Source of the DNA: Megaustenia siamemsis
Taxonomy: Eukaryota > Mollusca > Gastropoda > Stylommatophora > Ariophantidae
Reading direction: 5' to 3'
Assembly: GCA_032433765.1 (NCBI GenBank)
Contig: JAVIAB010000092.1
Location: forward strand, 36,730,853 to 36,794,852
DNA length: 64,000 nt
Shown in pieces: positions 4,126 to 60,206 of this stretch (the stretch's first letter is position 1; every line of letters begins with the position of its first letter). The notes beneath the pieces were generated by a model, which ran no database searches, was not told the DNA's origin, and was given only the letters and a program-made list of their open reading frames with translations. Both the position numbers and the translations under genes were made by a program.

Positions 4126-4287
4126 AACACGATTAAATGTAACACGAGGGTCATACGTTTAAAGTTTCTTTATTATTTACAGAATGTATCAATGGCTAAA
4201 GACATCATCCATCTTCAAACAACGTTGATTACGACGTTATCTCTAAATTGCAAGTCGTCAATTCCTTTCTTTCCTTACCGCTGTCCT

Positions 4288-4638
4288 GTGAGGAGAATGC
4301 ATGTTACGCTTCAAACAATGTAAGGAGAATGCATGTTACGCTTCAAACAATGTAAGGAGAATGCATGTTACGCTTCAAACAATGTAAGGAGAATGCATGT
4401 TACGCTTCAAACAATGTAAGGAGAATGCATGTTACGCTTCAAACAATGTAAGGAGAATGCATGTTACGCTTCAAACAATGTAAGGAGAATGCATGTTACG
4501 CTTCAAACAATGTAAGGAGAATGCACGTTACGCTTCAAACAATGTAAGGAGAATGCATGTTACGCTTCAAACAATGTAAGGAGAATGCATGTTGCGCTTC
4601 AAACAATGTAAGGAGAATGCATGTTACGCTTCAAACAA
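4288..4638. repeat. 32-bp minisatellite
   Basis: About eleven near-identical copies of a 32-bp unit containing GTAAGGAGAATGCATGTTAC. Copies differ by isolated substitutions (for example ATGCACG in one and GTTGCG in another). No spacers separate the units, so this is not a CRISPR array. Confidence 0.95.
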
Positions 4639-11599: not shown

Positions 11600-12110
11600 T
11601 ACATATAAGGTACGACAACTATTACTCGTAATTTTAGGGTAAAAGTATATGATGAAAGCTATAGCAACCGTTACAGGTAACTTGGACATCAATGATACAT
11701 GTAATGACAACTATTACTTGTAATTCTAGGGTAAATGATACAAGCTATGGCAACTATTACTTGAAATTCTAATTAAATGACATAAGCTATACACCTATTA
11801 GGCGTAACTGACGTAATTGGCACAAGCTATGACCACTATTACTCGTAATTCTAGGATAAATGATACAAGCTATGACAACTATTACTTGTAATTCTAATTA
11901 AATGATATAATCTAAACACCTATTAGGCGTAACTGACGTAATTGATACAAGCTATGACCACTATTACTCGTAATTCTAGGATAAATGATACAAGCTATGA
12001 CAACTATAACTTGTAATTCTAATTAAATGATATAATCTATACACCTATTAGGCGTAACTGACGTAAATGATACAAGCTATGACCACTATTACTCGTATTG
12101 TTAACGTAAA
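11600..12110. repeat. 125-bp tandem repeat in an MCTP intron
   Basis: About four diverged copies of a 125-bp unit. The marker TTAGGCGTAACTGACGTAA recurs with its GGCGT at 11801, 11926 and 12051, which gives the period. Each unit is itself built from two similar halves around ACTATTACTYGTAATTCTA. Confidence 0.88.
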
Positions 12111-28010: not shown

Positions 28011-28720
28011 TGAAGCCTTAAATGATTTGAAAATCAAGAAAGTATCACTAAAATAATTCGAACAAGTCAAGTTAATCTCTGTTACATATAAAGAGACATA
28101 ATAACGTAGTGATGTTATTGTTTAAAACTGGCGAAATATAGGACACAAGAGTCAGAGACAAGCAGATATTGGAGAGGACTGATAATATCAAGAGCAGCAT
28201 GAAGCATGAGAAACTTTGAGTGACAACTATTGAAAGTCAAGTACAACTACCGAATGTCAAGTACAACTACCGAATGTCAAGTACAACTACCGAATGTCAA
28301 GTACAACTACCGAATGTCAAGTACAACTACTGAATGTCAAGTTTAGATGTGAAATCAGAGCAGTATGAAGATGGAATTGTGTACATAATTAAAGACTAAT
28401 TTTTGTGGACTATTTCTTGCTATCATTTAACTTCGTACACGTTAAGCTGGTACTGTTTGTGAATGTGAACACAAATCATCAAACAAACTTACATAAGCAA
28501 AAGATGATAATAAACTAGTCCTGGAAAAAGATGCACCTTAAGACAAGAAAGATGTGATGATTGATCTTGCTCATCTTTGTAATTGTGGAAAACTTACTGG
28601 TGAAATGGTAATGACATACTGCTGACCAAATTATCCTAAAATAAGCCGAAGGTTAAAACGAAATATGGTCACTAACGCCACAAACATTATCTTTTAATTT
28701 GCAGCTACACACAATAAAGG
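28011..28720. other. Spacer with short repeat
   Basis: Includes the 20-bp repeat listed separately; otherwise nothing recognised. Confidence 0.45.
28231..28340. repeat. 20-bp minisatellite
   Basis: About 5.5 copies of GAATGTCAAGTACAACTACC. Confidence 0.95.
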
Positions 28721-28721
28721 A

Positions 28722-29612
28722 GTTCTTTCTTTCTTCATTATTTAAAGGTTGTTCTTTCTTTCTTTATTATTTAAAGGTTGTTCTTTCTTTCTTCATTATT
28801 TAAAGGTTGTCCTTTATTTCTTCATTCTTTAAAGGTTGTTCTTTCTTTCTTCATTATTTAAAGGTTGTCCTTTCTTTCTTCATTATTTAAAGGTTGTCCT
28901 TTATTTCTTCATTATTTAAGGTTGTTCTTTCTTTCTTTATTATTTAAAGGTTGTTCTTTCTTCTTTATTATTTAAAGGTGTTCTTTCTTTCTTTATTATT
29001 TAAAGGTTGTTCTTTCTTTCTTCATTATTTAAGGTTGTTCTTTCTTTCTTCATTCTTTAGAGGTTGTTTTTTCTTTCTTTATTATTTAAAGGTTGTCATT
29101 TCTTCCTTCATTATTTAAAGGTTGTTTTTTCTTTCTTTATTACTTAAAGGTTTTTTTTCTTCCTTCATTCTTTAAAGTTTTTTTTCTTTCTTCATTATTT
29201 AAAGGTTGTTCTTTCTTTCTTCATTATTTAAAGGTTGTTTTTTCTTTCTTTATTACTTAAAGGTTGTTTTTTCTTCCTTCATTCTTTAAAGTTTTTTTTT
29301 CTTTCTTCATTATTTAAAGGTTGTTCTTTCTTTCTTCATTATTTAAAGGTTGTCCTTTCTTTCTTCATTATTTAAAGGTTGTTCTTTCTTTCTTCATTAT
29401 TTAAAGGTTGTTCTTTCTTTCTTCATTATTTAAAGGTTGTTCTTTCTTTCTTAATTATTTAAAGGTTGTCCTTTCTTTCTTCATTATTTAAAGGTTGTTC
29501 TTTCTTTCTTCATTATTTAAAGGTTGTTCTTTCTTTCTTAACTATTTAAAGGTTGTTCTTTCTTTCTTAATTATTTAAAGGTTGTCCTTTCTTTCTTCAT
29601 CATTTATAGGTT
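28722..29612. repeat. 29-bp minisatellite, ~0.9 kb
   Basis: About 30 copies of a 28-30-bp unit containing TTATTTAAAGGTTGTTCTTT. Variants swap TTCTTT/TCCTTT/TTTTTT and CATTATT/CATTCTT/TATTACT. The strand is strongly pyrimidine-biased. Confidence 0.95.
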
Positions 29613-29765
29613 GCTGAATGTTTGTCATGAAATGGGTGATAGTTCAAGCATCCAAGTGGACAGCTGTGAAAGTGTTCCCCGCCAAACTGATGAAACTCTT
29701 TAACTCCGGAGTTGTGTAAATGAGGATTGGAATCACGGTAGGGGCAACATGTTTTTTTCTCTCTC

Positions 29766-30275: not shown

Positions 30276-30278
30276 CAT

Positions 30279-30735
30279 TTTGTCTTTGAACTTTTTGTCT
30301 TTGAACTTTTTGTCTTTGAACATTTTGTCTTTGAACATTTTGTCGTTGAGCATTTTGTCTTTGAGCATTTTGTCTTTGAGCGTTTTGTCTTTGAGCGTTT
30401 TGTCTTTGAACATTTTGTCTTTGAACATTTTGTCTTTGAACATTTTGTCTTTGCACATTTTCTCTTTGAACATTTTGTCTTTGAGCGTTTTGTCTTTGAG
30501 CGTTTTGTCTTTGAACTTTTTGTCTTTGAACATTTTGTCTTTGAGCGTTTTGTCTTTGAACATTTTGTCTTTGAACATTTTGTCTTTGAACATTTTGTCT
30601 CTGAGCATTTAGTCTTTGAGCGTTTTGTCTCTGAGCATTTTGTCTTTGAACATTTTGTCTTTGAGCATTTTGTCTTTGAACATTTTTGTCTCTGAACATT
30701 TTGTCTTTGAACATTTTGTCTTTGAACATTTTGTC
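30279..30735. repeat. 15-bp minisatellite open in several frames
   Basis: About 30 copies of TTTGAACATTTTGTC, with variants at two positions (GAAC/GAGC, ATTT/GTTT). Because 15 is a multiple of three and the unit lacks stops, long repetitive frames open on both strands (SLNIL on plus; KDKMF and RQNVQ on minus). Nothing suggests a real protein. Confidence 0.95.
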
Positions 30736-31765: not shown

Positions 31766-31865
31766 NNNNNNNNNNNNNNNNNNNNNNNNNNNNNNNNNNN
31801 NNNNNNNNNNNNNNNNNNNNNNNNNNNNNNNNNNNNNNNNNNNNNNNNNNNNNNNNNNNNNNNNN
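31766..31865. other. Assembly gap, exactly 100 N
   Basis: A run of exactly 100 N, the usual placeholder for a gap of unknown size. It lies directly against the 5' part of a long, nearly duplicated LINE, which probably stopped the contig. MCTP exons to its left are on the minus strand; those to its right are on the plus strand. Confidence 0.97.
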
Positions 31866-37093: not shown

Positions 37094-37168
37094 ATTAAAG
37101 CAGGAATACGAACAGTAAACCCAAAGGAGGAAAAAATTATGCTTCCAGAACAAAAGTTTAAAATTTCG
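37094..37168 (+). CDS. Mctp: MCTP exon: linker after the third C2 domain
   Basis: Plus-strand exon of 75 bp with a pyrimidine-rich acceptor ending TTACAG and a GTAAAC donor. It is phase 0 at both ends. It reads IKAGIRTVNPKEEKIMLPEQ KFKIS. This corresponds to the VKASLRTLIPKEQKYIEEE segment that links the third C2 domain to the membrane region in MCTP1/MCTP2. The preceding C2B/C2C exons are not seen between the N gap and this exon. The next expected exon (the basic segment before membrane helix 1, ending just before VVWNFELY) is not found before 45291. Confidence 0.82.
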
Positions 37169-41110: not shown

Positions 41111-42040
41111 TGAATTAAAAATATAAAATATCAGACTTGACTTCCTCTTGTGCAGCATAGTTTGACCACAGCCAACTATAGTTTTACTAAAGCCTGTGGC
41201 TGAAAGAATCACTAAAACATTGTGACATTTTCAGCTTTGTGAGATTGGGCACTTGGGTAAAATGAAGATAGCAATCTATAGCTCACATAGCTGAAGACAT
41301 CGCAGGCTTTGAGTAATTTCAGGAAACGCTTTTTTTCCCACAGGCCTTGATAAAACCAGTTGCCTGGGATTTGGCAAACTATATGCCTGGGGTTTACAGT
41401 TCTCAAAGACTTATTGACTTTGATGTCCTTTACTGCAAGTCTAAGGTTGTGTAATGATTGTGTTATAAGTTCTAAAAAGTTTATGGATAGGTCTTTGTTG
41501 TAGAGAATGTTTTAGTGAATTACCATCTCAGGCCATAATTATGTAAGATTTTATCTCATAATAGCATGATTGGAGCTATTTCTTTCAAAAATAAAATATA
41601 AACACTAAACTACGTGGAGTCTATTGTAACAAGCAAACTTTGTTTTCTTCAATTCAAAGCTCTTTCAATCACTACTCAAAAGCACTTCGTTTTTCCACCC
41701 CAATCACCCCGCCAAACAACATAATGATAAAATTATCATAATAATTTTGCCTTCTATCATATGCTACTTTTGACATATTTCAATCTGAATGCAGATAATG
41801 AAAGAGAACATTAATCGGTGTCTCAATTGGTTGGAGTATTCATAGATGCGGGAAAATTCATCCAGAGTTGTTTTGACTGGCAGTCTCCATCTCGGACTAT
41901 TACAGCCTTTATTGTAAGTATAAATGAAAGATTGTAATTTTTTTAAGTCATGTGTTATACTAAAGTGAAGAAGCTGTACATTTCTTGTATACATTAAACA
42001 ATTAAAACAAATACCATTTTCCTCTTTTTCATTTACCCTT
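41111..42040. other. MCTP intron sequence without recognised element
   Basis: I looked here for the missing MCTP exon preceding membrane helix 1 and did not find it. A CT-rich tract begins at 42055. Confidence 0.45.
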
Positions 42041-44600: not shown

Positions 44601-45039
44601 CCAATTTGCCCTGGACCAAATAATTGCAAAATAGCAGTTTTCTAGCCACATGACAAAGGAGAGTTCCCCAGTCAATTTGCACTAAATTGCAATCAGTTTA
44701 AAACTGCTGAAAATTAATTATGTGCTTGTAAAATGGACAAATGTTATCCATGCTAGTTGGAAGCTTTCCCTTTATGGAACACCCCACTTCAACTGAGTTG
44801 GATCCACATTTACTAAGAATTAAAACATAAAAAATGTTTGTGTTTTTTCATAAAAGTGTCATAGTACAAATGTGGCTGTCACAAATAGTGAGACTTCAGA
44901 TTTGTTTCTTCTGTATTTATAATTGTTCCAGTTGAAGACCTTATGACTTGAACATTTGATTGTTGTTTAGCCTTGTGCTATTTACAAAGTTGAAATATCC
45001 CATTTTTGTTTTTTTATTGTATATACAGATAGTTGCCTT

Positions 45040-45331
45040 AATCTGTTAATACAGTTTCTAGTGTATTTCAGATATATTTAGTGATTGTATGGAACTTTGA
45101 GCTATACAAGCTAATCTGTTAATACAGTTTCTTGTGTATTTCAGATATATTTAGTGATTGTATGGAACATAGAGCTATACAAGCTAATCTGTTAATACAG
45201 TTTCTTGTGTATTTCAGATATATTTAGTGATTGTATGGAACTTTGAGCTATACATTCTAATCTGTTAATACAGTTTCTTGTGTATTTCAGATATATTTAG
45301 TGATTGTATGGAACTTTGAGCTATACATGCT
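45040..45331 (+). repeat. 73-bp tandem repeat spanning an MCTP splice acceptor
   Basis: Four head-to-tail copies start at 45040, 45113, 45186 and 45259, exactly 73 bp apart. Each contains AATCTGTTAATACAGTTTCT, the acceptor GTGTATTTCAG and the first ~40 bases of the following MCTP exon (ATATATTTAGTGATTGTATG). The last copy runs into the real exon. The three upstream pseudo-exon starts (45072, 45145, 45218) would each meet a TAA stop within about 17 codons. Confidence 0.95.
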
Positions 45332-45416
45332 CCCTATATCATTGCTTCTAATTTTTACAAAGAATCTGGTGGTTGCACAAATTTTAGGAAACACAAGGAA
45401 GGAACCAGTGGAAGAT
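45291..45416 (+). CDS. Mctp: MCTP exon: first membrane segment and start of the acidic loop
   Basis: 126-bp exon, phase 0 at both ends, acceptor TATTTCAG, consensus donor GTAAGT at 45417. It reads IYLVIVWNFELYMLPISLLL then IFTKNLVVAQIL and GNTRKEPVED. The VVWNFELYM-P motif followed by a hydrophobic stretch is the hallmark of the first transmembrane segment of MCTP proteins; the hydrophilic GNTRKEPVED begins the loop between the membrane segments. The acceptor lies in the last of four tandem copies of the same splice site, and only this copy reads through without a stop. Confidence 0.92.
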
Positions 45417-45639
45417 GTAAGTGGTTGCAGCGATAGATTTATATACTTTCATTGACTGCAGTAATATATTTCTACACATTTATACATATTTTAGCTACAT
45501 TGTGAACCCTGATGGACAAGTGCATTTACACTTATGAGGTAAAGGATTATTCACCTTGGTTATTACTTTCATTATTACTAGATTCAAAAGGTGTTCATGG
45601 TAATTTAATTCATGATAAGTATGATGGGTTTTTTTTTCT

Positions 45640-49759: not shown

Positions 49760-49810
49760 GACTACTGCACAGATGAGGATGATGAAGATGATGATGATGA
49801 CAAAGATAAG
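49760..49810 (+). CDS. Mctp: MCTP exon: acidic loop between membrane segments
   Basis: 51-bp exon, phase 0 at both ends, acceptor TATTCCAG and a weaker donor GTACTG. It reads DYCTDEDDEDDDDDKDK. MCTP1/MCTP2 have a short run of Asp/Glu ending in DKDDK at the same position between the two membrane segments. Without this alignment it would be missed as a gene because of its length. It follows the GNTRKEPVED end of the exon at 45416 in frame. Confidence 0.85.
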
Positions 49811-49889: not shown

Positions 49890-50570
49890 CTATCTATCTA
49901 TCTATTGACCTTTCAAGCCATAGCCGGCCCATAGGGCATAGACCAAGATACACCTTCTCCTATCTGAATTTTTGTTCTAGCAGTTTTCTTTTAAAGATAT
50001 TTTATCAAATCTCGCCATCTGTCTCTGTTCTGTGCAAACAGCTCTATCTCTTTGAGGGAGCCAAATCCTACTGCTCTTGCCTCTCTCATCAATGTTCTTT
50101 TCAGTGTCTCCCTGGGTCTTCCTCTTTTTCTCTTACCTGTTGTTTCCCATATGAGGGCTTGCTTTGCTATTCGGTTATTATCTCTTCTCATCACATGTCC
50201 AACATATGACCATTGTCTTTTCTTTATTACTGAAGATATTAGTGGTTGATTGGCGATTTCTCTAATTTCCTCGTTTGTTTTGAATTCGTTCCACGCTATA
50301 CCAAGTATTTTCCTTAGACATTTATTTTCGAATGCGTTCAACTTTGTTTATATATATCTTGTTGTTTTCAAGCTTTCACACGCATACGTAAGGGTTGATA
50401 GTACATTTGATTTGAATAGCCTATGTTTTGTGTTTGTGCTGATTAGTTTTGATTTCCACGACTTTTCAAGGCTTCTGAAAGACATTGCTGCTTTAGCCAT
50501 TCTGATTCTAATTTCTTTACTTGTATCCCTTCTCGATCAATGTGACTTGTGATAATGAAATGTACACCTG
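49890..50570 (-). mobile_element. LINE family D copy with 12-bp TSD
   Basis: Minus strand. The frame 50341-49991 reads NAFENKCLRKILGIAWNEFK, SSVIKKRQWSYVGHVMRRDN, GRPRETLKRTLMREA and LFAQNRDRWRDLIKYL; the 3' UTR and ATAG tail are at the left. The 12-bp duplication ATTTGATAAAAT lies at 49878-49889 and 50571-50582. About 20 bases next to the right duplication do not match the LINE. Confidence 0.93.
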
Positions 50571-52220: not shown

Positions 52221-52226
52221 AGCAAG

Positions 52227-52333
52227 AAGAAAAAAAGAGCATGTGTAGACAGATACCATGCTGTGCAAGAAGTTTGTTTAACAGTGCAACAGGCCCTTGA
52301 CATGGTTGCTAGTTTAGGAGAAAGGGTGAAAAA
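52227..52333 (+). CDS. Mctp: MCTP exon: amphipathic segment before the second membrane region
   Basis: Reads KKKRACVDRYHAVQEVCLTV then QQALDMVASLGERVK, matching the KKGFxxKIYAIQEVC...LDEVASFGERIK block of MCTP1/MCTP2. The donor GTAATT at 52334 is phase 2 and joins exactly to the exon at 53758. The start is ambiguous. The strong acceptor TTTTTTTTTACAG ends at 52222, but splicing there would put the exon out of frame with the previous phase-0 exon. The AG four bases further (CAAG, ending 52226) restores the frame. An over-called run of seven A is the other explanation. Confidence 0.85.
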
Positions 52334-53757: not shown

Positions 53758-53867
53758 CACATTCACTTGGAGTGTTCCATGGTTATCTTCCCTTGCAGTT
53801 ATTGCCCTTGTGGCAGGCAGTATTGTCCTTTTTTACATTCCACTTCGGTTTTTGCTGTTAGCCTGGG
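53758..53867 (+). CDS. Mctp: MCTP exon: second membrane segment
   Basis: 110-bp exon, acceptor TTTTAAG, donor GTAGTG at 53868. It enters in phase 2 and leaves in phase 1. It reads (N)TFTWSVPWLSSLAVIALVA then GSIVLFYIPLRFLLLAW(G). This is the conserved NTFNWTVPFLSWLAIVAL...LYFIPLRYIVLVWG segment of MCTP proteins, a hairpin-like membrane region. Both neighbouring junctions keep the reading frame, which supports the boundaries. Confidence 0.93.
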
Positions 53868-55722: not shown

Positions 55723-57174
55723 TGGAAAACAGAGAAGACGCCTCATAAATGAAAAAAGGAATCATTGTTAAGATCCCAAAAAAGGGCAATCTTAGAGATT
55801 GTAACAACTGGAGAGGCGTGACACTTTTGTCAGTTGCCTCAAAGTTATTCTGTAAAATCATCCTAAATAGAATAAAGGATTCAATAGATACAGTAATGCG
55901 TGAAGAACAGGCTGGGTTTAGAAAAGGGAGAAGCTGTCTTGACCACATTTTCACTCTACGACTTATATTGGAGGAACACATTGAAAAGCAAAAACCTTTT
56001 GTACTTAACTTCATCGACTTCAAAAAAGCATTTGATAGTATTCATAGAGATTCTTTGTGGAAAATTCTGAAGCAATATGGCTTACCATCAAAAATCATAA
56101 ATATTATCAAAGACATGTATGATGGTTACACATGTGCAGTTCGAACAGAGGAAGGACTGAGCGAATGTTTCCCAATAGAAACTGGGGTTAAACAAGGATG
56201 TATTTTATCGCCCTTGTTATTGGAATTGTTATGGACTTCATAATGAAGAAATGCTGCACTGGTAATAAAGGCATCGAATGGATACAAGGAGACCATTTGG
56301 AGGACCTCGACTTTGCTGATGACATAGTTCTCATCAGCAGTCAGATAAAAACGATGCAGGAAAACACAAATGAACTATCATCAATAGCCAGCAAAATTGG
56401 GCTTGAGGTCAATCATGAAAAGACTAAAGTCATGAAAAGTTTAATTCCAACAAGTGACAAAATATACATGGAAAACAAACCAGTAGAAGAGATCGATCAC
56501 TTTATCTATCTTGGAAGTCACATTGATCGAGAAGGGGATACGAGCAAAGAAATTAGAATCAGACTGGCTAAAGCAGCAATGTCTTTCAGAAGCCTTGAAA
56601 AGTTGTGGAAATCAAAACTCATTAGCACAAACACAAAACTTAGGCTATTCAAATCAAATGTACTATCAACCCTTACGTATGCGTGTGAAAGCTGGAAAAC
56701 AACAAGAGATATAGAAACAAAGTTGAACGCATTCGAAAATAAATGTCTAAGGAAAATACTTGGTATAGAATGGAACGAATTCAAAACAAACGAGGAAATT
56801 AGAGAAATCGCCAATCAACCACTAATATCTTCAGTAATAAAGAAAAGACGATGGTCATACGTTGGACATGTGATGAGAAGAGATAATAATCGAATAGCAA
56901 AGCAAGCCCTCATATGGGAAACAACAGGTAAAAGAAAAAGAGGAAGACCCAGGGAGACACTGAGAAGAACATTGATGAGAGAGGCAAGAGCAGCAGGAAT
57001 CGGCTCCCTCAATGAGATAGAACTGCTTGCACAGAACAGAGACAGATGGCGAGATATGATAAAATATCTTTAAAAGAAAACTGCTAGAACAAAAATTCAT
57101 ATAGGAGAAGGTGTATCTTGGTCTACGCCCTATGGGCCGGTTACGGCTCGAAAGGTCAATAGATAGATAGATAG
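55723..57174 (+). mobile_element. LINE family D, best copy in the window, with 12-bp TSD
   Basis: 5'-truncated element flanked by perfect ATAAGTTATGTT (55711-55722 and 57175-57186). Frame 1 (55749-56243) carries the RT fingers and palm: IVKIPKKGNLRDCNNWRGVT, EEQAGFRKGRSCLDHIFTLR, NFIDFKKAFDSIHRDSLWKI and GVKQGCILSPLLL. Frame 2 (56198-57073) carries the rest: LEDLDFADDIVLISSQ (FADD box), DHFIYLGSHIDREGD, the CLRKILGIEWNEF block and the C-terminal GRPRETLRRTL...RWRDMIKYL. One 1-base shift near 56215 separates the two. The 3' UTR ends in an ATAG tail. It appears to be the youngest family D copy here. Confidence 0.95.
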
Positions 57175-57246: not shown

Positions 57247-57344
57247 GTATAAACAAATTCACAAAAAAATTGCGTAAACCAGATGCCATTTCCAACAATG
57301 AATTGTTAGATTTTTTGTCAAGAGTGCCATCAGACAATGAACTG
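57247..57344 (+). CDS. Mctp: MCTP exon: conserved post-membrane segment
   Basis: 98-bp exon, acceptor TCTCACAG, entering in phase 1 and leaving in phase 0. It reads (G)[19 protein letters not shown] then [13 protein letters not shown], almost identical to the [30 protein letters not shown] block found in vertebrate MCTP1/MCTP2. The downstream splice site is GCAAGT, a GC donor; no in-frame GT donor lies at the conserved boundary. Confidence 0.95.
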
Positions 57345-60137: not shown

Positions 60138-60206
60138 TTGCAGTACAGAGAACTCAGGCCAGATATCCCCGCCAATACGCCATCCATGAAGAAAAAACGT
60201 TCATAG
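60138..60206 (+). CDS. Mctp: MCTP last exon: C-terminal tail and stop
   Basis: Acceptor TTTAATTCCAG; 69 bp including the stop, starting in phase 0. It reads LQYRELRPDIPANTPSMKKK RS and TAG. MCTP proteins end in VQYQELKPD...KRKKNN with the same length and basic terminus, so this is the true C-terminus. A basic Lys/Arg tail at the cytosolic end suits an ER membrane protein. A polyadenylation signal follows 126 bases later. Confidence 0.93.
   Translation: MQYRELRPDIPANTPSMKKKRS

Follow-up and report, generated by a model that had tools for sequence, protein, structure and literature searches.

A 73-bp minisatellite carries four copies of a splice acceptor in an MCTP gene of a gastropod

The stretch of gastropod DNA analysed here (64,000 nucleotides, referred to as the window) contains the C-terminal part of an MCTP gene, and in this gene a short tandem array lies across the beginning of the exon that encodes the first membrane segment. 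A first-pass annotation, made from the letters of the window, had recognised the gene as MCTP, and protein matches, tblastn exons and domain matches to homologues bear this out. When 166 C-terminal residues were searched, the best among the 120 matches listed included the MCTP1-like protein of Physella acuta at 74% identity and, over the same 166 residues, proteins of Biomphalaria (73%), Bradybaena (73%), Lymnaea (73%) and Elysia (69%), and Octopus reached 58%; Physella and Elysia belong to the Heterobranchia, the group of gastropods to which the MCTP matches point. Domain scores were above the cut-off both for C2 (67.1 bits) and for PRT_C (48.2 bits), the first C2 domain being the only one within the window, where it lies on the opposite strand and beyond a gap. 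Seven C-terminal exons on the plus strand were located by tblastn with five relatives as queries, and their edges were adjusted by eye; the exon at 49760-49810 comes from a scan for acidic residues and agrees with the alignment (Table 1). At these eight C-terminal exons the donors are GT or GC and the acceptors AG, and no stop was found where the exons match their homologues. From 45291 onwards the sequence encodes IYLVIVWNFELYMLPISLLLIFTKNLVVAQILGNTRKEPVED, which is the first membrane segment of MCTP.

Table 1. Coordinates of the repeat units, the premature stops and the C-terminal MCTP exons in the window
Feature	Position	Strand	Remarks
MCTP exon IKAGIRTVNPKEEK...KIS	37094..37168	+	tblastn
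MCTP exon upstream of the array, would join to the array	41795..41913	+	119 nt; a base shorter than homologues require
Repeat unit 1	45040..45112	+	acceptor before 45072; -12 is A; TTAAT, its A at -31
Repeat unit 2	45113..45185	+	acceptor before 45145; CTAAT, its A at -31; exon part with two private changes
Repeat unit 3	45186..45258	+	acceptor before 45218; CTAAT, its A at -31; a single private change close to right edge
Repeat unit 4	45259..45331	+	acceptor before 45291; sole copy with the remainder of the exon after it
TAA stop met from acceptor 45072	45120..45122	+	tail IYLVIVWNFELYKLIC
TAA stop met from acceptor 45145	45193..45195	+	tail IYLVIVWNIELYKLIC
TAA stop met from acceptor 45218	45266..45268	+	tail IYLVIVWNFELYILIC
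MCTP first-membrane-segment exon (IYLVIVWNFELYMLPISLLLIF...)	45291..45416	+	126 nt, phase 0 at both ends; GTAAGT donor at 45417
MCTP acidic-linker exon DYCTDEDDEDDDDDKDK	49760..49810	+	acidic-residue scan, alignment
MCTP exon	52223..52333	+	111 nt; a base longer than homologues require
MCTP second membrane-segment exon	53758..53867	+	tblastn
MCTP exon, apparently spliced to the last exon at 60138	57247..57344	+	tblastn; apparent GC donor gaactg/gcaagt
MCTP last coding exon (LQYRELRPDIPANTPSMKKKRS, stop)	60138..60206	+	tblastn

The exons that encode the first C2 domain (12468-12379, 11430-11284 and 8443-8363) are on the minus strand, across a gap of 100 N at 31766-31865, and are thus in the opposite orientation to the membrane exons (37094-60206, plus strand) of what is seemingly one MCTP gene. 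A misoriented contig is the probable cause, the alternative being a second MCTP gene. No later C2 exons of MCTP were found by tblastn in the 64-kb window, and a misoriented contig would explain their absence because they would then lie to the left of the window. Reverse-transcriptase-like retroelement fragments are present in introns of MCTP at 49994-50347 (minus strand) and 55749-57070 (plus strand); the part of the plus-strand fragment that was searched reached at most 65% identity among the 120 of 218 matches listed, and the named ones are distant.

Two 1-nt frameshifts interrupt the gene model, since the exon at 41795-41913 is one base short and the exon at 52223-52333 one base long with respect to the phases that the homologues require. 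Such lesions would suit a pseudogene or dying copy, in which an array and frameshifts could pile up without consequence, but this is very unlikely to be the state of the locus, given the open homologous stretches and the donors and acceptors described above and given the result of a test on invariant columns. In the C-terminal part the protein of the window shows 2 unique departures in 97 otherwise invariant columns, which is inside the range of 0-7 departures in 95-102 columns seen in 13 gastropod relatives (proteins picked from the 120 listed, with Nucella and Babylonia represented twice each, and with two residues at one frameshift masked). The N-terminal half was uninformative in this test, as the window shared just 8 columns there and none of them was invariant. 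The coding sequence of MCTP thus looks to be under constraint, and this points to a working acceptor still being in use; because the protein is otherwise conserved both frameshifts are probably indels of the assembly.

Tandem Repeats Finder (TRF) reports one array at 45039-45331, with a period of 73, 4.0 copies, 96% matches and 0% indels, and a comparison of the units with one another likewise confirms, in the given sequence, the fourfold head-to-tail repetition of a 73-bp unit that the first-pass annotation had described. The six possible pairs of units differ at 1-4 of 73 positions (pairwise identity 94.5-98.6%), and the match at a lag of 73 breaks off sharply at either flank of the array. 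In each unit the last 32 nt of the intron are joined to the first 41 nt of the MCTP1-like membrane exon, in keeping with the earlier description of an intron end, a CAG acceptor and about 40 exon bases, and the exon starts had been placed correctly at 45072, 45145, 45218 and 45291. The word TGTATTTCAG occurs four times in the 64-kb window, always on the plus strand and always within 45040-45331. Units 1, 2 and 3 have private changes, and one further change is common to units 1 and 2. Because there are so few changes between the units, their expansion is, on this comparison, young or homogenised. With similar head-to-tail units of a size within about 10-100 bp the array is a minisatellite, and with a tandem unit that spans an exon-intron boundary, here in four copies, it also has the structure of the arrays known as mirages.

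It is conceivable that the number of units is an artefact of assembly or a haplotype-specific state, and that the real or more frequent allele carries a single unit or some other number. Faults are indeed close by, namely the 100-N gap, on whose two sides the parts of MCTP face opposite ways, and the two 1-nt frameshifts, and the study of amphioxus mirages reports one mis-assembly in a draft genome as well as variation between haplotypes (PMC3087553). The four units of MCTP are, however, not identical, as the private and common changes attest, and non-identity of copies has likewise been argued to count against assembly error in studies on potato (PMC4974935) and fission yeast (PMC3629103); the array is, moreover, only 292 bp long. 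On balance an artefact or a haplotype-specific state is unlikely.

Minisatellites are frequent in the window, for example at 1-502, 4287-4638, 11691-12097, 28715-29613 and 30276-30735. TRF finds 19 distinct arrays with a period of at least 10, which occupy 6.0% of the bases. When the MCTP array is left out, the remaining 18 arrays occupy 5.6%, and under random placement, a model that takes no account of selection against arrays that hit genes, 1.17 exon edges out of 21 would be expected to fall inside one of them (probability of at least one, 0.70). On the same assumption 1.03 edges would be expected inside the 10 other arrays with at least 3 copies, and 0.20 edges (P 0.18) inside the 2 other arrays that resemble the MCTP array more closely, with both a period of at least 50 and at least 3 copies. 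Of the 21 MCTP boundaries, none but the one spanned by the 73-bp array lies inside an array. The repeat as such is not due to chance, and its position at an exon edge is less surprising than the repeat itself.

The donor score table, the branch consensus and the distance rule for nonsense-mediated decay (NMD) that are used in what follows belong to the general background on splicing. Each unit looks like a complete 3' splice site, with branch-point-like motifs, a pyrimidine tract and CAG. YTNAY motifs with their A at -31 and -23 are present in all four units, and between -4 and -20 there are 11-12 pyrimidines in 17 positions, compared with 9 to 14 at the other seven C-terminal acceptors of MCTP, so that at the level of motifs every unit supplies the branch motif, pyrimidine tract and AG of a tandem 3' splice site. 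The four acceptors had been thought to share an identical context; this holds for the last 11 intron bases, whereas at -12 unit 1 has an A in place of T, which creates an extra AG 10 nt ahead of its acceptor. The junction between units yields CTAAT in units 2-4, and unit 1 has TTAAT, for which reason unit 1 looks like the slightly weakest copy. The productive copy may thus have gained a better branch site (CTAAT) through the unit junction, and selection on that gain is possible. Folding of the array RNA was not clearly better than that of shuffled sequences (z -1.40; 8 of the 100 shuffles did as well or better), and no inverted repeats of at least 12 nt were found at 44900-45500.

Donors within the units are poor. 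The best GT, ATT/GTATGG, scores -1.7 bits and falls below all six GT donors of MCTP (-0.4, -0.1, 0.1, 0.8, 1.6 and 3.6), although the gap to the weakest of these is small. This bears on the idea of a nascent intron gain, in which cryptic donors in the duplicated exon piece would pair with the acceptor of the next unit. A boundary-spanning tandem duplication did make a new intron in the RdRp gene of potato (PMC4974935), and mirages have been proposed as a route to new introns in amphioxus globin genes (PMC3087553), but in MCTP such splicing would have to rely on the low-scoring donor and would leave a 15-nt exon, and we regard it as extremely unlikely.

The upstream exon ends in phase 0 at 41913 (ATT/gtaagt), and the reading frame in the array therefore starts with the first base of every exon copy. 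From the acceptors before 45072, 45145 and 45218 this frame meets TAA as the 17th codon, within the intron part of the next unit, whereas from 45291 there are 42 open codons up to the donor GTAAGT. The reading frames thus support the earlier statement that only the last acceptor reads through and that the other three run into an in-frame TAA. Among all 21 AGs at 45020-45300, 20 lead to a stop ahead of the donor at 45417, and the frame remains open only from the acceptor before 45291. The three truncated tails are nearly alike (IYLVIVWNFELY or IYLVIVWNIELY, followed by KLIC or ILIC), and in their best 19 residues they reach a hydropathy of 1.75-2.19, compared with 1.99 in the full membrane segment.

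A stop that lies more than 50-55 nt upstream of an exon junction makes a transcript prone to decay. The stops met from acceptors 1, 2 and 3 lie 294, 221 and 148 nt ahead of the donor, and each is followed by five modelled exon junctions, so these products lie well within the distances at which decay is expected and are, in theory, prone to NMD. To this extent the stop positions agree with the view that transcripts from the upstream acceptors would be open to decay. In simulated duplications of the MCTP boundary (two copies, intron part 20-60 nt, exon part 20-80 nt) a stop arose in 2244 of 2501 cases (~90%), and because hypothetical duplications stop so regularly the premature stops of the array need no selection. 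The notion that the decoys were shaped by selection for stops was rejected, a stop being the default outcome.

A regulated or graded array of poison acceptors, as the first-pass annotation had suggested, would require appreciable use of the upstream acceptors, with their transcripts passing to NMD and the copy number setting the output of MCTP. Four near-identical acceptors, three of them with a stop 148-294 nt ahead of the donor, would suit such a device, and the length of an intronic variable-number tandem repeat (VNTR) in ABCA7 has been linked to splicing and expression in a study and a review (PMC5954066; PMC6660495). It is nevertheless improbable, and tuning of expression by copy number is not supported here, as about 90% of hypothetical breakpoints would give a stop anyway, and as RT-PCR on the amphioxus mirages was read as showing no interference with regular splicing (PMC3087553). 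A rheostat on MCTP that varies in copy number is distinctly unlikely; in it each added unit would contribute one decoy acceptor, and the decoy transcripts would be degraded or, if they escaped decay, would give an MCTP with one membrane segment and without the second.

Judged by its anatomy, the MCTP array is of the mirage kind that is already known. In amphioxus BflGb6 the unit likewise combines an intron 3' end with the 5' part of an exon (exon 2), repeated head to tail with six units in one haplotype and three in the other, and there is an authentic copy used by the gene together with many repeats that have splice signals (PMC3087553). That paper gives unit sizes of 150-160 bp for BflGb6, 157 bp for BflGb9 and 10-72 bp for Adh3, reports instability of length and, at Adh3, somatic instability, and describes mirages as possibly general in cephalochordates (PMC3087553). 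The differences are that the amphioxus arrays come from a cephalochordate, with reported instability and RT-PCR, and that the MCTP array has a unit of 73 bp and is found in a gastropod. Because mirage clusters are reported to be unstable in length, it is plausible by analogy that the copy number in MCTP differs between individuals. The potato RdRp gene is similar in that a segment running from the 3' side of an intron into the 5' side of the following exon was duplicated in tandem, which copied the branch site, pyrimidine tract and acceptor; it differs in having two copies, a cryptic GTAAG donor and a new intron supported by RNA-seq (PMC4974935), whereas MCTP has four copies and no strong donor in the unit.

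The repeats of fission yeast, the minisatellite of IFI6 and the VNTR of ABCA7 are more distant parallels. IFI6 (6-16), a human interferon-induced gene, reportedly contains a minisatellite with multiple splice donors (NAR 1995); it resembles the MCTP array in supplying several splice sites to one gene, and differs in that these are donors and those of MCTP are acceptors. In the fission-yeast genes SPOG_01682 and SOCG_00815 tandem units each have a potential splice site and the copies are again not identical, but the units are exonic and 24 nt long, with AGGC proto-splice sites linked to gained introns, whereas MCTP copies a pre-existing acceptor (PMC3629103). The VNTR of ABCA7 is a tandem repeat in intron 18, and its length goes along with the splicing and expression of the host gene; the reported effect is skipping of exon 19 and lower expression, and not competition among copied acceptors (PMC5954066). 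A further paper (PMC3039753) concerns a minisatellite start site and was rejected as a parallel.

We conclude that the array is probably a passive, mirage-like minisatellite over a 3' splice site of MCTP, in which the last acceptor would do most of the productive splicing and the extra copies would have no selected function. It would have arisen by a short tandem duplication across the intron/exon boundary that later expanded as a minisatellite, and in each unit putative branch points, a pyrimidine tract and CAG precede 41 nt of exon. Any of the four nearly equal acceptors could, in principle, be joined to the upstream exon. Full-length protein would require the last of these, which alone adjoins the whole exon, and use of acceptors 1-3 would lead to a premature stop and probably to decay. 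Most transcripts would then be expected to use the last acceptor, with some leakage to acceptors 1-3.

The anatomy of a mirage in a gastropod suggests that minisatellites spanning an exon-intron boundary may be commoner than their description in cephalochordates would imply. The array may also serve as a natural case of splice-site competition, in which four nearly identical acceptors follow one another in 73-nt steps and only one is predicted to be productive. The choice of acceptor could reveal the role of order, of distance from the donor or of exon context, and alleles with other copy numbers would provide a dose series.
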